Assembly: GCA_009926305.1 (NCBI GenBank)
Contig: RFPC01000019.1
Location: forward strand, 1 to 37,650
DNA length: 37,650 nucleotides
Direction: 5' to 3'
From: a bacterium
GTDB taxonomy: Bacteria > Bdellovibrionota_C > UBA2361 > RFPC01
The notes beneath the pieces were generated by a model. The model searched no databases and had not been told where the DNA came from. It was given only the letters and a program-made list of their open reading frames with translations. The first letter of the stretch is position 1. The number at the start of each line of letters is the position of its first letter. Shown in pieces: positions 3 through 17,867 of this stretch. Made by a program: the position numbers and the translations under genes.

Positions 3-785
3 TCATCGTAAGGATGGAGAAGATTCAGCAGAGATTCCTGCTATCCATCCTTGGCTCTGCCTGAGGAGTTGTGGTTTATCAAGGAGTTTAATCCCTGCGG
101 GAACCGTTACATCGACGAAACCATCGAGGTAAGCCTGCTGAATAGGAGAAGTATCTTCAATTATGATACTTCCATTTAAGGATATAATTTCGATGATGCT
201 CTCTGTGCTTTGTGCCGTGAGTTGTCTTAGATGCACATCTCCTCCTGCGATAATAAGTAGAGACTCTCGAGCATGTAGCGTGCCGCTCGAAGAGAACGAG
301 CCATTTACGGTAAAGATCTGCTCTCTTTGTATCTTCAGATAATCTGAGACCTTGAGATTGTGTCGTGTTCTAAACGGCGATGAAATCGCTCCTTCCTCTT
401 TGATGCAAGTGAAATGAGAGCGAAAGTTTTGGAAGCGTAACGGGGTGCTGAACGATTCGAGCTCCTGTTTAGTGCAGTTCTCTGGCAGATTGAGATATTC
501 GTCGAGCTGATACACCGAATAACCAGGAAGAGGAAGGGAAAGCTTTCTTGACATGCTGATCTCAGTTAACCCGATGCTCCCTTTTTCTATGAGCAACGGC
601 GTTGATTTTTTTTGTGTTAGAATTGCTTCTTGGAGGCGATGATACATTCTTTGTCGAAGAGTGTAATGTTGAGCACGTTGCAGAGTAGCATGAGTGTTGC
701 TTGCCCGGTCTTTTAGAAACACCCCAAGGAGTGTAAGAATAATTAAAATACTAATGAGAACGGAGCCAGAATCTTTCATATTCAC
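3..785 (-). CDS. PilX/GspK-like minor pilin (260 aa)
   Basis: Probably a minor pilin or pseudopilin of a type IV pilus or type II secretion machine. The N-terminus has a short leader (MNMKDSG) followed by a 17-residue hydrophobic helix beginning SVLISILIIL, the usual prepilin layout with Gly at -1. Position +5 of the mature form is Ser rather than Glu, which is normal for GspK but not for most pilins. The rest is a soluble domain with two cysteines and no family I can name. It is the last of four genes read in the same direction in the order expected for fimU-pilV-pilW-pilX or gspH-I-J-K. The GTG at 785 overlaps the TAG of the upstream gene by one base; an ATG two codons later is an equally good start. 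The stop is at the window edge, so a downstream pilY1-like gene cannot be seen. Confidence 0.6.
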   Translation of the reverse strand: MNMKDSGSVLISILIILTLLGVFLKDRASNTHATLQRAQHYTLRQRMYHRLQEAILTQKKSTPLLIEKGSIGLTEISMSRKLSLPLPGYSVYQLDEYLNLPENCTKQELESFSTPLRFQNFRSHFTCIKEEGAISSPFRTRHNLKVSDYLKIQREQIFTVNGSFSSSGTLHARESLLIIAGGDVHLRQLTAQSTESIIEIISLNGSIIIEDTSPIQQAYLDGFVDVTVPAGIKLLDKPQLLRQSQGWIAGISAESSPSLR

Positions 786-1594
786 TAAAACTGTATTCGC
801 TTTGTTTGTAACAAGAGCTGATCGAAGCTGTGGCGAGAAAGAACGAGCGGGAAATATTGCTTAAATTGCTTACGTGATAGTGAAGAGAAAAGAGTGACGG
901 AAAGCTCTCCTGCACTATCGCTTTGCCGATTCAGTTCAAGCATGAAGGTTGGAGAATCGTTAAGGAGTGGCTGATTCTCGATTACGGAATCTCCTCTATG
1001 CTGGACTAGGCGAAGAACATCCTGTTTGCTTACGTAAAGTGTTGTAATTGAACGTAGAAGAAGAAAAGCATTGGGAGATGGTAGGAATTCGCTATCAAGT
1101 TGCTGCGTAATCAAACTATTTGTTGGGATCTTCGAGATGCGAGGAGAGCACCCTTCTTGCCAGAAAATTATGGCTTCGAAGATAAAGTCGCCGGTGTAAG
1201 CTAGGGAGTGGTGGGGAATGCCTGTTTGCATGCATGGTGTCTGGTTTGAGCGAGGAACGATAGGAGCGATGTGGGATAGCTGTACGAACGTTATCGCATC
1301 AGAGTTTAATTTTATAGCGAGGTGATCGTTACGAAGCGAAAGCTCATGAGGAGAGCCATCGAAATAAGTGACTCTTCCTTCTCTATGAATAACGGGCAGA
1401 AGCGGATAGCGATGAGTATCAAGTTGGTTTTGGATGTGGGTGATGATGCTATAAATTCGGATCGTATTATGGAGCTCGCGATTTAGATTCCGATTCTGAT
1501 GCGATAAAGTATGTTCTCCGTTGAGGAAATAGGCAAATCCAGTTAAAAGTGTGCCCGTTAAGAATAAGGCGATAAGTTTTTCGAGAAGAATCAT
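785..1594 (-). CDS. PilW/GspJ-like minor pilin (269 aa)
   Basis: The start reads MILLEKLIALFLTGTLLTGF, which matches the mature N-terminus of a PilW/GspJ pilin: hydrophobic helix with Glu at position 5. The Met sits exactly where residue 1 of the processed protein should be, so there is no leader peptide. Reading upstream in frame gives only eight sense codons (S N E S A L A A) before a TAA, and none is a usual start codon, so the leader is absent rather than mis-annotated. The remainder is a long beta-rich soluble domain with two cysteines near the middle. It starts 5 bp after the stop of the PilV-like gene with no clear ribosome binding site, suggesting translational coupling. Family call rests on the N-terminus and gene order. 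Confidence 0.55.
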   Translation of the reverse strand: MILLEKLIALFLTGTLLTGFAYFLNGEHTLSHQNRNLNRELHNTIRIYSIITHIQNQLDTHRYPLLPVIHREGRVTYFDGSPHELSLRNDHLAIKLNSDAITFVQLSHIAPIVPRSNQTPCMQTGIPHHSLAYTGDFIFEAIIFWQEGCSPRISKIPTNSLITQQLDSEFLPSPNAFLLLRSITTLYVSKQDVLRLVQHRGDSVIENQPLLNDSPTFMLELNRQSDSAGELSVTLFSSLSRKQFKQYFPLVLSRHSFDQLLLQTKRIQF

Positions 1595-1599
1595 TGCCG

Positions 1600-1839
1600 C
1601 TAACGCACTCTCATTCGATTACTGCCACTTGAAGTAGTGCAATGCAGTATATGCTCGCTTAAAAAATCTGTTGCTTTGCAGGTAATACTCTGATTTTCAG
1701 CATATTGATCAATGGAGATCTCCTGAGAAACTCTTTGCAATGTTTGATGAAGGAGAGAGGTTGTTGCGCTAGAGCATGCAATGGTCAATATCATGAGCGT
1801 AATACCGACCAGGGATTCGATAAGCGTTATACTACTCAC
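1600..1839 (-). CDS. PilV/GspI-like minor pilin (79 aa)
   Basis: Short pilin-like protein. After a three-residue leader (MSS) comes ITLIESLVGITLMIL, a typical pilin helix with Glu at +5; position -1 is Ser instead of Gly. Two candidate GTG codons exist. The one at 1848 overlaps the AAGGAG ribosome binding site (1848-1853) and is unlikely; the one at 1839 lies eight bases after it and is chosen here. The gene then overlaps the end of the FimT-like gene by 8 bp. At 79 residues it is shorter than PilV or GspI usually is, with a C-terminal part holding two cysteines. It occupies the second position of the minor pilin operon. Confidence 0.5.
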   Translation of the reverse strand: MSSITLIESLVGITLMILTIACSSATTSLLHQTLQRVSQEISIDQYAENQSITCKATDFLSEHILHCTTSSGSNRMRVR

Positions 1840-2275
1840 TGCACTCACTCCTTAAGCGACCTCTGAGCGAAAGGACTATTTCACAGATATGATGATTCAA
1901 TTCAATGAGTATACGGGCTGGTGTGTTGACCAGATGAGGATAAAAGACGATGCCATTACTTGGAAAAGTAGCAGTAATATGTGGAGAAAGCTGAGCTTGT
2001 CGTCGGATAACGCCTCCATCCTGTGACAGAAGGCGAATGGTATGAGTTTGTGATTGCAAAGTCATAGGTTTGTGCTCCAAAAGCGATATGGCTTCCCCCT
2101 CCTCAATCAGCCATTTGATTTTTTGTACATCTCCGTATAGCACAGCTCTTTGACGGGCATCTGTGAGTCCTCTACCAGTAAGTACAATTGTAGTCGTACT
2201 CATAAAGAGTACGAGAAGAAGCGAAAGGAGAGATGCTCCATTCTGTCTTCCGAAGTCATACCTATAATTCTTCAT
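1832..2275 (-). CDS. FimT/GspH-like minor pilin (147 aa)
   Basis: The leader (about 13 residues ending RQNG) is followed by ASLLSLLLVLFMSTTTIVL, a pilin-type helix with Gly at -1 but Ser at +5. The C-terminal half has the strand pattern typical of FimT/GspH proteins: a predicted strand with FPSNGIVFYP, then a strand ending near SLRGRLRSE, where these families carry a conserved GRxR-like end. GspH/FimU is the first gene of the minor pilin set in known operons, and it is first here too. Its ATG at 2275 has no strong ribosome binding site, and a 12-bp inverted repeat lies immediately upstream. The E5 replacement is unusual for this family. Confidence 0.5.
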   Translation of the reverse strand: MKNYRYDFGRQNGASLLSLLLVLFMSTTTIVLTGRGLTDARQRAVLYGDVQKIKWLIEEGEAISLLEHKPMTLQSQTHTIRLLSQDGGVIRRQAQLSPHITATFPSNGIVFYPHLVNTPARILIELNHHICEIVLSLRGRLRSECSE

Positions 2276-2345: not shown

Positions 2346-3089
2346 TTATTCACCTTGAGCAAAAATGAACTCGATGAGCTCGCTTTCAAGTCTATGTACA
2401 TCGATGGGAGAATGGAGGGAAGATATTTGAGAGGCAATTTCCTGAGAAAGCTGCTCCATTGCACCATCGCTGACCTGTGAGTGTGAGTTGATGTATCGCG
2501 TCGTAGCTACCTGGAGGATATCTTGTGCGCGCTCAAATGAGGCTGCTGCTGACTCTCTTCCGCTAATTGCAATTTGCGTCAGCGATTCAAGCGTTTGTTC
2601 AGCACTGATTGCTCCAGCAGTGCTAGATATATCAACTCCAGAAAGCTGCCCAATACCCTGAAGATCTGCAAGTGAGACGACGAGGTTATCGTCAATCGTA
2701 TACGTGCTTCCAGATAAAACATTTATGCCATTTTCATCGGTAGCCTCACTAATAATACGAGTTATCTCACTTTCAATGCTACTTAACTGTGATTGAAGAG
2801 ATTGTTGGAGAGTTGGATTGCTTGTTTCTCGTGCTGCTTTTGCCACGGCTTCTTGGCTTTTTCGAAGTGCTACGATTTCATCTACGGCGGTTAAAGCAAT
2901 AAGAGCATTACTACTGGCTTTACTTGCAAGAAGGTGAGGACTAGTCACTTTTTGCTCTGTGGTATTGAGTTCGATAATGTCAGTCATTGAAGATGGGGCT
3001 TGTGAGGCACTCAGTGCGACTCTACCAGACTGTAGGCTGGAAGAGGTGCCGGGAAGCTGAGCTAAACGGAGAAATAATGAGATTTTCAT
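2346..3089 (-). CDS. Flagellin D1-like helical protein (247 aa)
   Basis: Residues about 58-135 resemble the N-terminal D1 helices of flagellin: an ALTAVDEIVALRKSQEAV-type helix, then LQSQLSSIESEITRI, then a turn with NGINVLSG. Flagellins carry I..EI..L..EI.RI followed by NG..LL.G at this point. A later helix (about 168-205, ISGRESAAASFERAQ) could match the C-terminal D1 helix. The conserved flagellin start with RLSSGLRIN and the C-terminal D0 tail are both absent. The gene overlaps the upstream gene by 4 bp (ATGA), and that gene supplies a D0-C-like tail. It is therefore probably a secreted filament or hook-associated protein rather than a normal flagellin. No other flagellar gene is visible. 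FlgL-like is an alternative reading. Confidence 0.5.
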   Translation of the reverse strand: MKISLFLRLAQLPGTSSSLQSGRVALSASQAPSSMTDIIELNTTEQKVTSPHLLASKASSNALIALTAVDEIVALRKSQEAVAKAARETSNPTLQQSLQSQLSSIESEITRIISEATDENGINVLSGSTYTIDDNLVVSLADLQGIGQLSGVDISSTAGAISAEQTLESLTQIAISGRESAAASFERAQDILQVATTRYINSHSQVSDGAMEQLSQEIASQISSLHSPIDVHRLESELIEFIFAQGE

Positions 3090-3913
3090 TTTAAGAGTTG
3101 AAGTACCCGCAGTTGATTTTGATTAGCTTGCGCAAATAGTCCTTTAGACTGTTGGCTTACGATTTGAGTATAGGTTTCAGATGCAGAGTTTTCAGCGCTT
3201 GCAATGTCTCGAATACGCTCTGCTGATAATTCTAAAGAAGATTCGCCTTGTGGCGTAGTCTGGCTGCGTATTCGTAGCTCCTCCAGTGCACTCTGTTCAG
3301 ACATTCGAATATTTGAGATGGCAGTCTTTTCCTCTCGTACGAGAGAGAGAATTTTTCGCATGTCTTCTGATGAACTATTCATCTGAATATCGAGGGGCTC
3401 TGGTCTGTACTGGATGACTGGGGGTTTGGTAAGAGCGGGAAGTAAAGGACTTGCTGGATCAAGAGGTGAATCAGCTGAGCTTGGCTCGGTTGAAGCAAGA
3501 CTTCTTCGAGTCTCTTCTTCAGTCACGAGTAGTCGTCTCGTCTCGTTTTCAAGATCCTTAAATTGAATCAGCTGTTCAAATGCTTCCTTTTCCTGAATTT
3601 TCTCTTTTAAGAGTCGTTCGATAATCTTCTCTTGTTTTTCGCGTATCTGAACGATTTTAGCATTAATCATTTCTCGACGCTCAAGAAGTACTGCGAGCAT
3701 ACGGGTAGTTTTTTCGGAGCGTTGCTCAATGAGGGTCAGAAATTTTTCAAAAGCCTCTTCATTTTCTGAGGCTGCATTATCCTGCTGGGGTGAGGAAGAT
3801 GAGTGAGAAGGTCTCTCTGTCTCAGAATTCTTGATCTTATCTGAGCCTTCGGACCGAGTCGTACTTTTAGGAAGGCGGGCGGAAGCCCCATCGAGAGTGG
3901 AAAGCACAGCCAT
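3086..3913 (-). CDS. Coiled-coil protein with flagellin C-terminal D0 tail (275 aa)
   Basis: Three parts are visible. Residues 1-50 are Ser/Pro-rich and look disordered. Residues 52-145 are a long charged coiled coil (many Glu, Lys, Arg with heptad leucines). A Pro-rich linker follows to about 178. The last 47 residues match the flagellin C-terminal D0 segment closely: SAERIRDI, then LFAQANQNQLRVLQLLK, compared with the familiar SRIRD...LAQANQ.P..VLQLL ending. In flagellin this tail packs in the filament core and is needed for export and polymerisation. The start is well supported: AAGGGG seven bases before ATG 3913. It is the first gene of the pair with the D1-like gene, and the 150 bp upstream probably hold the promoter. 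I know of no described family with this architecture. Confidence 0.6.
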   Translation of the reverse strand: MAVLSTLDGASARLPKSTTRSEGSDKIKNSETERPSHSSSSPQQDNAASENEEAFEKFLTLIEQRSEKTTRMLAVLLERREMINAKIVQIREKQEKIIERLLKEKIQEKEAFEQLIQFKDLENETRRLLVTEEETRRSLASTEPSSADSPLDPASPLLPALTKPPVIQYRPEPLDIQMNSSSEDMRKILSLVREEKTAISNIRMSEQSALEELRIRSQTTPQGESSLELSAERIRDIASAENSASETYTQIVSQQSKGLFAQANQNQLRVLQLLK

Positions 3914-4067
3914 TTACTACCCCTTCGCACCAGGACAACAGATACCTATTTTTCCGATCCGTGGGGTAATATCCGAGACGGTGCACTTATAACGTCACCA
4001 TTCGTTCTGAAGTATGAAGGGGAAGTCGGTATTTAGGCGAAAAACTAAAGAGTTGAACTCAATTTCT

Positions 4068-4535
4068 CTAATTTATGGGAGTTTCCTCTAAGCCTAGCAT
4101 TTTCTGTAATTTATGACGTAGGTAAGTCTCATAGCCATCTTCCACGCCGTCTGCTTGAATTACCTGTTCAATAATACGCATTATTGACATTCGCTCATCG
4201 AGACTGAGATTGTCGGTCAAGAGCTTGCCGAATTGACTCACTCCTCTCAGGTTTCGAAGAATAGTCTGAGCTTGATTAATAAGAGCCGATACTTCATGTT
4301 TCTGAGTGCCAAACATTTCCATAAGGCCATGGACAATTACTTGATATTCACGAGGATCAAATTCTTGATCCGAAGCAGCAAGGTCAACGAGTAAAACGGT
4401 AACAGCGAGTTCAATGTCTCTTTTTTTTGCCTTCCCATTAAAGCGTCTTCTTGCCTGCGTTGATTTCTGTGTTAATCCGGATTGTTGTCCGAGAAGCTGA
4501 TAAACTGTCTCTTTTAGCTTTGAAGATGAATCCAT
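4068..4535 (-). CDS. TerB-like protein (155 aa)
   Basis: An all-helical TerB-type domain covers about residues 35-150. It shows the two acidic ADG-like sites of the family: AASDQEFDPREY in the first half and QADGVEDGYE in the second, which in TerB bind metal. TerB-like domains occur in tellurite-resistance loci but also widely in envelope and unknown roles, so tellurite resistance is not implied. An ATG at 4535 with GAGG eight bases upstream is preferred over the TTG at 4559, which would add eight residues. The gene follows kdsD on the same strand with a 157-bp gap that includes a hairpin, so it may be transcribed separately. Confidence 0.7.
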   Translation of the reverse strand: MDSSSKLKETVYQLLGQQSGLTQKSTQARRRFNGKAKKRDIELAVTVLLVDLAASDQEFDPREYQVIVHGLMEMFGTQKHEVSALINQAQTILRNLRGVSQFGKLLTDNLSLDERMSIMRIIEQVIQADGVEDGYETYLRHKLQKMLGLEETPIN

Positions 4536-4696
4536 TTCCGTAACCTCTGATGGTGGCAAAACACGCGTTCTTTAATAGAGTTATGGGGTTATCGAGACAG
4601 GAAGTATCACAAAAATTCGATCGGAACGTGAAAGGCTAGCCAGATAACTATCGAGTATGATGACAATTTTTCTTGTTTTCAGAGATTTTCTTAGAA

Positions 4697-15824: not shown

Positions 15825-17867
15825 TTATGGTACGAATAGTTGCCAACTCTTTTGTGGATCTCTCAGGTTGGCTCCGACCGGAGTCCAGTTCGGATTGTTC
15901 CAATTTGGGATGATATCAATCGATACTATTGCTTGCTTTTCCCTATCATAGAAAGCTATTGAGACTCGGTCTTCCATTGTCCAGTCAAGGTTAGAGTTTA
16001 ATGATTTATGCTCAGAGAGTTTCTTTTCAAGGCTTTCTAAGACTTTTCCTTGCTGGCTCTTTGAGAGCGAAATATTCGTTACTATCGCCTCTTCATGCCT
16101 TCCAAGAAGATATCGGTCAACAATAGTCTCAAGCTTCTTTTCCACATCTTCGCGTTGTAGATACAAATTGTTTTTATCGTCTTCAGTAAGTTGAATTTCA
16201 GAATCTTTTTTGTTTAATTCTATCCACTTTTCTTTTGCCTCTTTTTCTTTCTCCGAATCTATTTCGCCAATTGTGGTTTCCAGTTGTCTAAGGGCTTGAG
16301 ATAGAACTGCAGCTTCTTGTAAGATTGCGGAAGCAATTGAATCTGGTTTAAAAGAATCTTGAAATATATCTTTTGCTTTTTCTTTCGTTATCTCCGTATT
16401 GTTAGCTATCAGATCATATAAACTGGGTTTATCCTCTGGTTTCTGTGGTTCCTCTTGTTCCTGTGACTCCTCTTGTTCCTGTGACTCCTCTTGTTCCTGT
16501 GACTCCTCTTGTTTCTGTGACTCCTCTTGTTTCTTAAGAAGCTCATTAATTTGAATATCAAATATATCTTTAGCAGTATCCCCGTTTACTGTTAAGTCTG
16601 TTTGTAGCTTTTGAGCTAGTTCATAAATCATTTGAGTTTTTTCTGCTTTAGAAAGTGTATCCCCCTGAAGCTTGTCTAGCGTCTCCTTGGCTGTTGTAGC
16701 AATGGATTCTTGTGAAATCGCGGACTCTTCTGTAGAGTTTTTTAAGGACATCCTTATTTGTTCCTCTAATTCTTCAGGAATTACTTCAATTCCATCAAAT
16801 CGTTCTCGGATTGCCTGTTTCTGGCTTTCAGAGAGTCCAGCGGTCAGTCGTTCGATATCTCGATACAAATTATCTTTATCGACTTGGCCGAATTCTTTCA
16901 TAACGGTATCAGCCACCAAGGCGGTGCTTGCTCCCAAGACAATAGGGTTCAGTCCGGTTTGACGACCAATGAGCATTGATATCCCCCCAATACCCCCAAA
17001 AAGTGCCGCGGTTCCTAAATGTTCCCACAAACCACTTGTTCGATATTGACTGGGGAGTTTGCTTAGTGCTTCTGTTAATTGTTCAGTAGTTCGAACCGCG
17101 TTAAAGCCGTCTAAGCCTTCGATAGTTCGTACGATATGATTCTTTAGATCATCACTTAATGGTTTTTCTTTCTTTTCATAGTGAGCTGTTAATTTTTCTT
17201 CGATGTAGTCGCTAAAAGACTGCTCTTTCAGTCCATGCTCTTCCAGTCGGTTCTTAAATTCACGTCGGATAAGATCTCCTTCACGCTTGCTTTGAATAGA
17301 ATTTAAAACCTGATAGACGGTAGTTATATCTCCAGTCTCAAGGGCATTTCCAATCATGTCCAAGCGGGATTGAGACAGCTTTATTTGTCGTTGGTACTCA
17401 GTTTTAAACTTAATATGATTTTGTTCCCTCGTTTCAAAATTGTCATTGCAGAGTATGCCTATAATATCCTCGTTAGAAAGTTCACCAGTGATGTGACGTT
17501 GAGCAATCTCTGACCATGATGCCTCTCCCTCAGGAGTTGGCAGCATCTCGTTGCCACTAAAGCCCGTGAGGATTTGTCTCAGCTGATCCTGTGAAGGAGC
17601 TGTCTTTAGGAAAGAATTAATAAAGGGATGTTCAAGCTCAGACATGAGCTTTGAATCATGCCCTGCCCCATAATCAATTAAGATTTCATTTCCATCAAAC
17701 TGGATATCTCCGAGCACAGCGTTGACTCTTGCAGTGGCACCATAGCCGAAGGGATCCGTTCGTTTGCTGACAGCTTCGCGATTAAATGCTCCCAATGTGC
17801 CAGGAGCATTTTCCTCTGGCTCATCAGAGACATCATGATGCCGTGGAGGTTGAAAAAGAGTAGACAT
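15825..17867 (-). CDS. Large protein of unknown function with QEESQE repeats (680 aa)
   Basis: No family recognised. Residues 1-60 contain a Gly/Phe segment (TDPFGYGATARVNAVLGD). Residues 165-225 and 330-378 are helical segments of similar pattern (for example LSESQKQAIRERFDG followed by EELEEQIRMSL), faintly like the annexin-type helical repeats in large deltaproteobacterial proteins. Residues 284-322 form two short hydrophobic stretches rich in Gly and Ala, long enough for a membrane hairpin. Residues 446-474 are a low-complexity Gln/Glu/Ser tract made by an 18-bp DNA repeat. The rest is charged and helical. There is one cysteine and no signal peptide, so any export would need a leaderless route. 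It is transcribed divergently from a glycine-zipper lipoprotein. Confidence 0.7.
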   Translation of the reverse strand: MSTLFQPPRHHDVSDEPEENAPGTLGAFNREAVSKRTDPFGYGATARVNAVLGDIQFDGNEILIDYGAGHDSKLMSELEHPFINSFLKTAPSQDQLRQILTGFSGNEMLPTPEGEASWSEIAQRHITGELSNEDIIGILCNDNFETREQNHIKFKTEYQRQIKLSQSRLDMIGNALETGDITTVYQVLNSIQSKREGDLIRREFKNRLEEHGLKEQSFSDYIEEKLTAHYEKKEKPLSDDLKNHIVRTIEGLDGFNAVRTTEQLTEALSKLPSQYRTSGLWEHLGTAALFGGIGGISMLIGRQTGLNPIVLGASTALVADTVMKEFGQVDKDNLYRDIERLTAGLSESQKQAIRERFDGIEVIPEELEEQIRMSLKNSTEESAISQESIATTAKETLDKLQGDTLSKAEKTQMIYELAQKLQTDLTVNGDTAKDIFDIQINELLKKQEESQKQEESQEQEESQEQEESQEQEEPQKPEDKPSLYDLIANNTEITKEKAKDIFQDSFKPDSIASAILQEAAVLSQALRQLETTIGEIDSEKEKEAKEKWIELNKKDSEIQLTEDDKNNLYLQREDVEKKLETIVDRYLLGRHEEAIVTNISLSKSQQGKVLESLEKKLSEHKSLNSNLDWTMEDRVSIAFYDREKQAIVSIDIIPNWNNPNWTPVGANLRDPQKSWQLFVP
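16451..16540. repeat. 18-bp tandem repeat inside the 680-aa gene
   Basis: Unit CCTCTTGTTCCTGTGACT occurs at 16451, 16469 and 16487 exactly, at 16505 with one change, and at 16523 as a partial copy; a decayed fragment precedes it at 16441. In frame it encodes QEESQE on the minus strand. Because the unit is a multiple of three, copy number can change without breaking the gene. Confidence 0.9.

Follow-up and report, generated by a model that had tools for sequence, protein, structure and literature searches.

A divergent flagellin lineage encoded beside minor pilin genes in an order of uncultured Bdellovibrionota_C

The DNA analyzed here (the window, 37,650 nucleotides of contig RFPC01000019.1) contains two overlapping genes, A and B, followed by four minor pilin-like genes. 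Comparison of related genomes at the sequence level indicates that this association of flagellin homologs with minor pilins is a real, conserved arrangement across the order, and that the window is its most remodeled member. A represents, in the window, a distinct lineage of flagellins that we designate FlaA. B, designated FlaB, is a flagellin homolog separate from A; it is diverged and has a predicted D1 domain of its own. Both had been predicted to derive from flagellin, neither being a normal flagellin, in agreement with the flagellin profile matches obtained for each. The evidence for the flagellin identity of A and B is strong; their function we infer.

The locus and its conservation in the order

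All genes of the locus are on the minus strand. Gene A (3086..3913, 275 aa) was identified as a remodeled FlaA ortholog from its open reading frame, in-frame codon statistics, position, and the match of its C-terminal half. It is located upstream from gene B (2346..3089, 247 aa) since both genes are read leftward, and the two overlap by 4 bp, the stop codon of A overlapping the start codon of B. B was assigned to FlaB from its match to PF00669, a score of 270 bits with the FlaB profile, and its AlphaFold2 model. As originally predicted, minor pilins are directly downstream: 70 bp separate B from a series of four small genes for pilin-like proteins (positions 2275 to 3), which overlap one another by up to 17 bp or are separated by a gap of 5 bp. 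These genes occupy the positions of FimT/GspH (1832..2275; synteny and profile), PilV/GspI (1600..1848; a short hydrophobic N-terminus with an ITLIES motif, and synteny), PilW/GspJ (785..1594; synteny), and PilX/GspK (3..785, at the contig edge; synteny), the first encoding a putative minor pilin or pseudopilin and the others putative minor pilins. In relatives, the protein at the FimT/GspH position of L073 matched GspH (PF12019, 1.9e-6), and those at the PilW/GspJ position of L073 and L113 gave weak matches to N_methyl (PF07963), under the cut-off. Upstream from A, at a distance of 154 bp, a conserved neighbor encodes a TerB-domain protein (4068..4559; PF05099, 1.1e-12, and synteny). The short gaps between A, B, and FimT, or between A and FimT, suggest a single transcript. 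No other flagellar gene was seen among the portion of the window ORFs that was scanned. Elsewhere in the window, a 680-aa ORF (15825-17867, minus strand) contains a run of QEESQEQEESQEQEE-type repeats.

FlaA was detected in 23 of the 29 genomes of the order, counting the remodeled ortholog of the window, and the order-wide gene succession is TerB-FlaA(-FlaB)-FimT-PilV-PilW-PilX. In 20 of these 23 genomes, a distance of about 5.5 kb or less separates FlaA from the FimT-PilV-PilW-PilX cluster, the most common location of FlaA being directly between TerB and FimT. Departures from this organization comprise a divergent FlaA (G016), hslV/hslU genes (G010) or other genes (G003, G005, and G012) intervening between FlaA and the pilin cluster, and a contig ending shortly past FlaA (G011). 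FlaA has been relocated away in G017 and G027, leaving the TerB-pilin cluster by itself. G014, in which TerB adjoins FimT, has no FlaA, no flagellin, and no canonical FlhA, and has kept two other FHIPEP proteins; it is the only genome in which the absence of FlaA accompanies missing flagellins and canonical FlhA. The passages of the Pelobacter genome paper obtained in a limited literature search deal with pilins and flagellins separately, which is not proof of novelty.

The conserved neighborhood with four minor pilins raises the possibility that A and B act with these pilins at the tip of a pilus or pseudopilus, replacing a tip protein such as PilY1. No PilY1 match was found in the window's genome, although the PilY1 control matched in no genome. 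Pilins leave the cell by the Sec pathway, whereas no Sec signal is evident in A or B, and the TerB-pilin clusters of G014, G017, and G027 are devoid of FlaA. We regard a role at the pilus tip as improbable.

FHIPEP (FlhA-family) proteins were also observed elsewhere. In the window's genome, the gene for one of them immediately follows a set of Tad/Flp pilus genes (those for RcpC/CpaB, a ParA-like ATPase, T2SSE, and two T2SSF; L197:8526-10628, G000:C8), and G014 encodes one in a similar gene order with TadE nearby (L199:7013-9124). A third family member of 638 and 619 aa, respectively, is present in the same two genomes (L198:682-2598, G000:C107; L200:7752-9611, G014). It matches the profile in two pieces and is adjoined in both genomes by a gene for a small TPR-like lipoprotein.

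The FlaA orthologs located at the position of A in members of the same genus, family, and order are proteins of about 259-298 aa with both flagellin ends, and all 11 orthologs scanned with Pfam matched both Flagellin_N and Flagellin_C. Their FlaA profile scores range from 289 to 364 bits versus at most 265 bits for the other flagellins of the order, the exception being FlaA of G010 (250 bits), which was assigned by position. Members of the class outside the order have short flagellins scoring 247-286 bits, with no minor-pilin cluster nearby in the stretches read. In the phylogenetic tree, 26 ordinary flagellins formed one clade (100/99) and FlaB another (100/99). FlaA fell outside the clade of ordinary flagellins, long branches leaving its inner order unsure.

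The original prediction that A and B might form a two-part filament subunit is not supported by these comparisons. A is a short flagellin on one chain in 22 relatives, B stands as a separate homolog, and A and B together fall short of one flagellin because the N-terminal D0 segment is absent from both. As to the accompanying proposal to survey the pair and coexisting flagellins, FlaB was found in only 3 of 13 families (f1, f8, and f13, the G005 copy being on a different contig) in a search confined to the phylum, which as grouped here consists of 46 genomes of a single class; in some families it is placed between A and the pilins. Normal flagellins do coexist with the pair, six short and two large ones being encoded by the window's genome. 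The large flagellins are of 616 and 654 aa (G000:C20:15108-15503 and G000:C4:3858-4265). Flagellin families are large in the class, with up to 36 Flagellin_N matches per genome (G005) and many frames of 600-700 aa. A 76-aa ORF (L036:3231-3461) fuses a flagellin N-terminal segment to the C-terminal end, as if the middle had been deleted.

Structure of the A and B proteins

Residues 184-275 of A (3089..3364, minus strand) correspond to the D1-C and D0-C segments of flagellin. Residues 185-275 matched the profile built from the orthologs of A (hmmsearch, 1.9e-12), which identifies a Flagellin_C end, and the C-terminal half matched flagellins of the PDB (phmmer, 2.4e-4). For every sequence tried, none of 300 shuffles reached the match of this half. 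In Pfam, residues 226-274 matched positions 38-86 of Flagellin_C with an E-value of 0.0024, the score of 18.6 bits being under the curated cut-off of 23 bits. The ortholog-profile match and the shuffle test indicate that the flagellin part of A comprises about 91 residues. The tail of 47 residues initially attributed to flagellin was thus correctly recognized as such, its extent, D1-C plus D0-C, being larger than that.

The N-terminal half of A is of a different nature. AlphaFold2 predicted a helical hairpin or coiled coil (residues ~42-141; 3491..3790, minus strand), composed of helices 42-102 and 108-141, at the place of D1-N in relatives. It is followed by a Pro-rich linker apparent from the sequence (residues ~143-180; 3374..3487, minus strand), with low pLDDT over most of its length. 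The body of A had been described in the same terms, a coiled coil and a Pro-rich linker, and the prediction is similar, with modest confidence in the model (pLDDT of 64). A fold search with this low-confidence model returned no match below an E-value of 0.001, and no Pfam match to Flagellin_N, the N-terminal D0-D1 part of FliC, was found in A. Weak collinear similarity was detected between the N-terminal half of A and the same-genus ortholog L026_A (59 versus 34±6 for shuffles, 1/300); the remaining orthologs gave two weaker signals, the others none. This half of A may have diverged from D1-N or may have been substituted. A recognizable N-terminal half has been lost in the A protein of the window's species only.

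A frameshift or an assembly error hiding the N-terminal half of A was considered and rejected, since tblastn searches in all frames gave matches solely in the frame of A. A might instead be a decaying gene, a pseudogene in progress, its N-terminal half being unrecognizable in comparison to most relatives and both A and B evolving fast. This we consider most improbable, as the frame is open, coding statistics are normal and support the frame of A along nearly all its length, the stop codon overlaps the start of B, and the C-terminal motif LFAQANQ...VLQLL is well preserved.

B matched Flagellin_N (PF00669) with an E-value of 7.1e-6, just on the cut-off, and the match begins at position 23 of the profile, i.e. 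the start of D0 is missing. The AlphaFold2 model contains a D1 core (residues 51-203; 2481..2939, minus strand) with pLDDT values mostly above 90, made up of helices 51-88 and 92-115, a hairpin at 129-139, and a helix at 157-203. Residues 1-48 are predicted to be disordered and the C-terminal end is of low confidence. Flagellins were the top matches of the model in a Foldseek search of the PDB, and the best match of the FlaB family profile to solved flagellins was 9.8e-13. Together, the AlphaFold2 core, the Foldseek matches, and the PF00669 match at the cut-off indicate a D1 fold, while the model and the late start of the Flagellin_N match indicate that B lacks D0 helices at both ends. The initial description of B as flagellin D1-like helices devoid of D0 ends is thereby corroborated.

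D0 erosion, a candidate promoter, and proposed function

In the ordinary flagellins of the class, D0-C is the most conserved segment (81% mean pairwise identity), followed by D1-N (74%) and D0-N (59%). The corresponding values are 31%, 52%, and 33% for FlaA, and 20%, 31%, and 16% for FlaB, in a comparison of unevenly sampled groups with 42-residue D0 boundaries that we set. D0 has thus undergone erosion in FlaA, FlaB is devoid of it, and the D1 core has been retained. In the A protein of the window, change has gone furthest on the N-terminal side. Since D0 packs the core of the flagellar filament, its erosion points away from filament building.

FlaA, with FlaB as a partner, could nonetheless be a minor component of the filament, a junction or short-segment subunit similar to FlgL at the filament base or tip. 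Most FlaA proteins are complete short flagellins with Flagellin_N and Flagellin_C, and the presence of several flagellins in one filament is common. The candidate promoter described below would also fit a late structural gene. However, D0-C shows some of the lowest conservation within FlaA, D0-N is absent from both FlaB and the A protein of the window, and the window's genome encodes a separate FlgL. We view this role as a real possibility, albeit a doubtful one.

Flagellin chaperones bind the C-terminal end of flagellin, as established for FliS. The A protein of the window mainly retains D1-C and D0-C, the segment bound by these chaperones, and the flagellin-FliS complexes 6gow and 5maw of the PDB were among the matches. 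A and B might function inside the cell as regulators of the traffic of flagellins, e.g. by occupying FliS or FliW. This role is quite unlikely in our judgment, as it leaves the link to minor pilins unexplained and D0-C is poorly conserved in other FlaA proteins.

A weak match to a sigma-28-like element, TTTAG-N14-ACCGA (4026..4049, minus strand), is located 136 bp upstream from A and is the sole such match in the window. Similar elements are present 134 and 130 bp upstream from A in two genomes of the same genus. The pattern T..AG-N14-[GA]CCGA, which was written after inspection of FlaA upstream regions, was found within 250 bp upstream from 11 of 18 FlaA genes for 0.19 expected (background of 0.0105 per 250 bp), the strict pattern being absent upstream from the other seven. 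The FlaA gene of G010, which had been held out, is preceded by TAAAG-N14-GCCGATA. Among FlaA genes found later, that of G016 is one base off the pattern and those of G007, G017, and G027 have none. No sigma-28-like element was detected upstream from 27 ordinary flagellin genes, for 20 of which just 40-130 bp were available. Since the ordinary flagellins checked show no such element, it is the consensus itself that assigns the sequence to sigma-28. No consistent pattern of sigma-54 sites was found.

The reading that we favor, and to which we give close to an even chance, is that A and B are flagellin homologs that have moved past filament building, being expressed late in flagellar assembly, exported by the flagellar apparatus, active outside the cell, and co-transcribed with the minor pilins. 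The original suggestion of a flagellum-exported device is retained as part of this reading. A sigma-28-type promoter would make A and B late flagellar products, so that they would appear when the flagellar export channel is ready. The proteins, whose N-termini are predicted to be disordered, could exit through this channel and serve as surface or matrix proteins in the extracellular space. Co-transcription would provide simultaneous production of the minor pilins, which may link flagellar completion to attachment. Export by the flagellum and co-transcription with the pilins are, taken by themselves, probable. Against this favored reading, most FlaA proteins match both flagellin ends and could still enter the filament. 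A coupling of flagellum to pilus by the operon as such, the flagellar sigma factor driving production of both D0-less flagellin homologs and minor pilins, with the former exported as an adhesive or matrix partner, appears unlikely. If it were true, completion of the flagellum would trigger attachment.

Comparison with known systems

The similarity to FliC and FlgL lies in the homologous D1 fold of B, the Flagellin_C match of A, and the presence of both ends in FlaA orthologs; the window proteins differ from FliC and FlgL by the lack of D0-N, and their lineage by the erosion of D0. The closest precedents that have been tested are FlaE and FlaF of Vibrio and FlaC of Campylobacter. The Vibrio proteins FlaE and FlaF are excreted via the flagellin channel, have no flagellar role, and bind exopolysaccharides in the biofilm (PMC6692518). 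As is the case for the window pair, they are flagellin homologs in excess of what the filament needs (PMC6692518), an excess also apparent from the six ordinary short flagellins and the two large ones that accompany A and B. In contrast to FlaE and FlaF, B has no D0 and A has no recognizable flagellin N-terminal half. FlaC of Campylobacter is a secreted flagellin-like protein that is not involved in motility (PMC4863622). Unlike the window pair, FlaC is one protein, with an effect on host immune signaling. The matches obtained for B in the fold and profile searches include the flagellin homolog of Sphingomonas sp. A1 (PDB 2zbi and 3k8v), named a cell-surface protein by its depositors. This homolog has kept longer chains, unlike the window proteins. 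We know of no pilin operon associated with FlaE and FlaF, of no pilin neighborhood for FlaC, and of no link to pilins for the cell-surface flagellin of Sphingomonas sp. A1. Non-filament flagellins are known from a few pathogens; here, conservation of a flagellin lineage apparently of this type, tied to pilin genes, extends across an uncultured order of bacteria. FlaA and FlaB display several stages in the loss of filament-building parts, and the locus offers a test of the wiring between appendage systems and of the capacity of the D1 fold alone.
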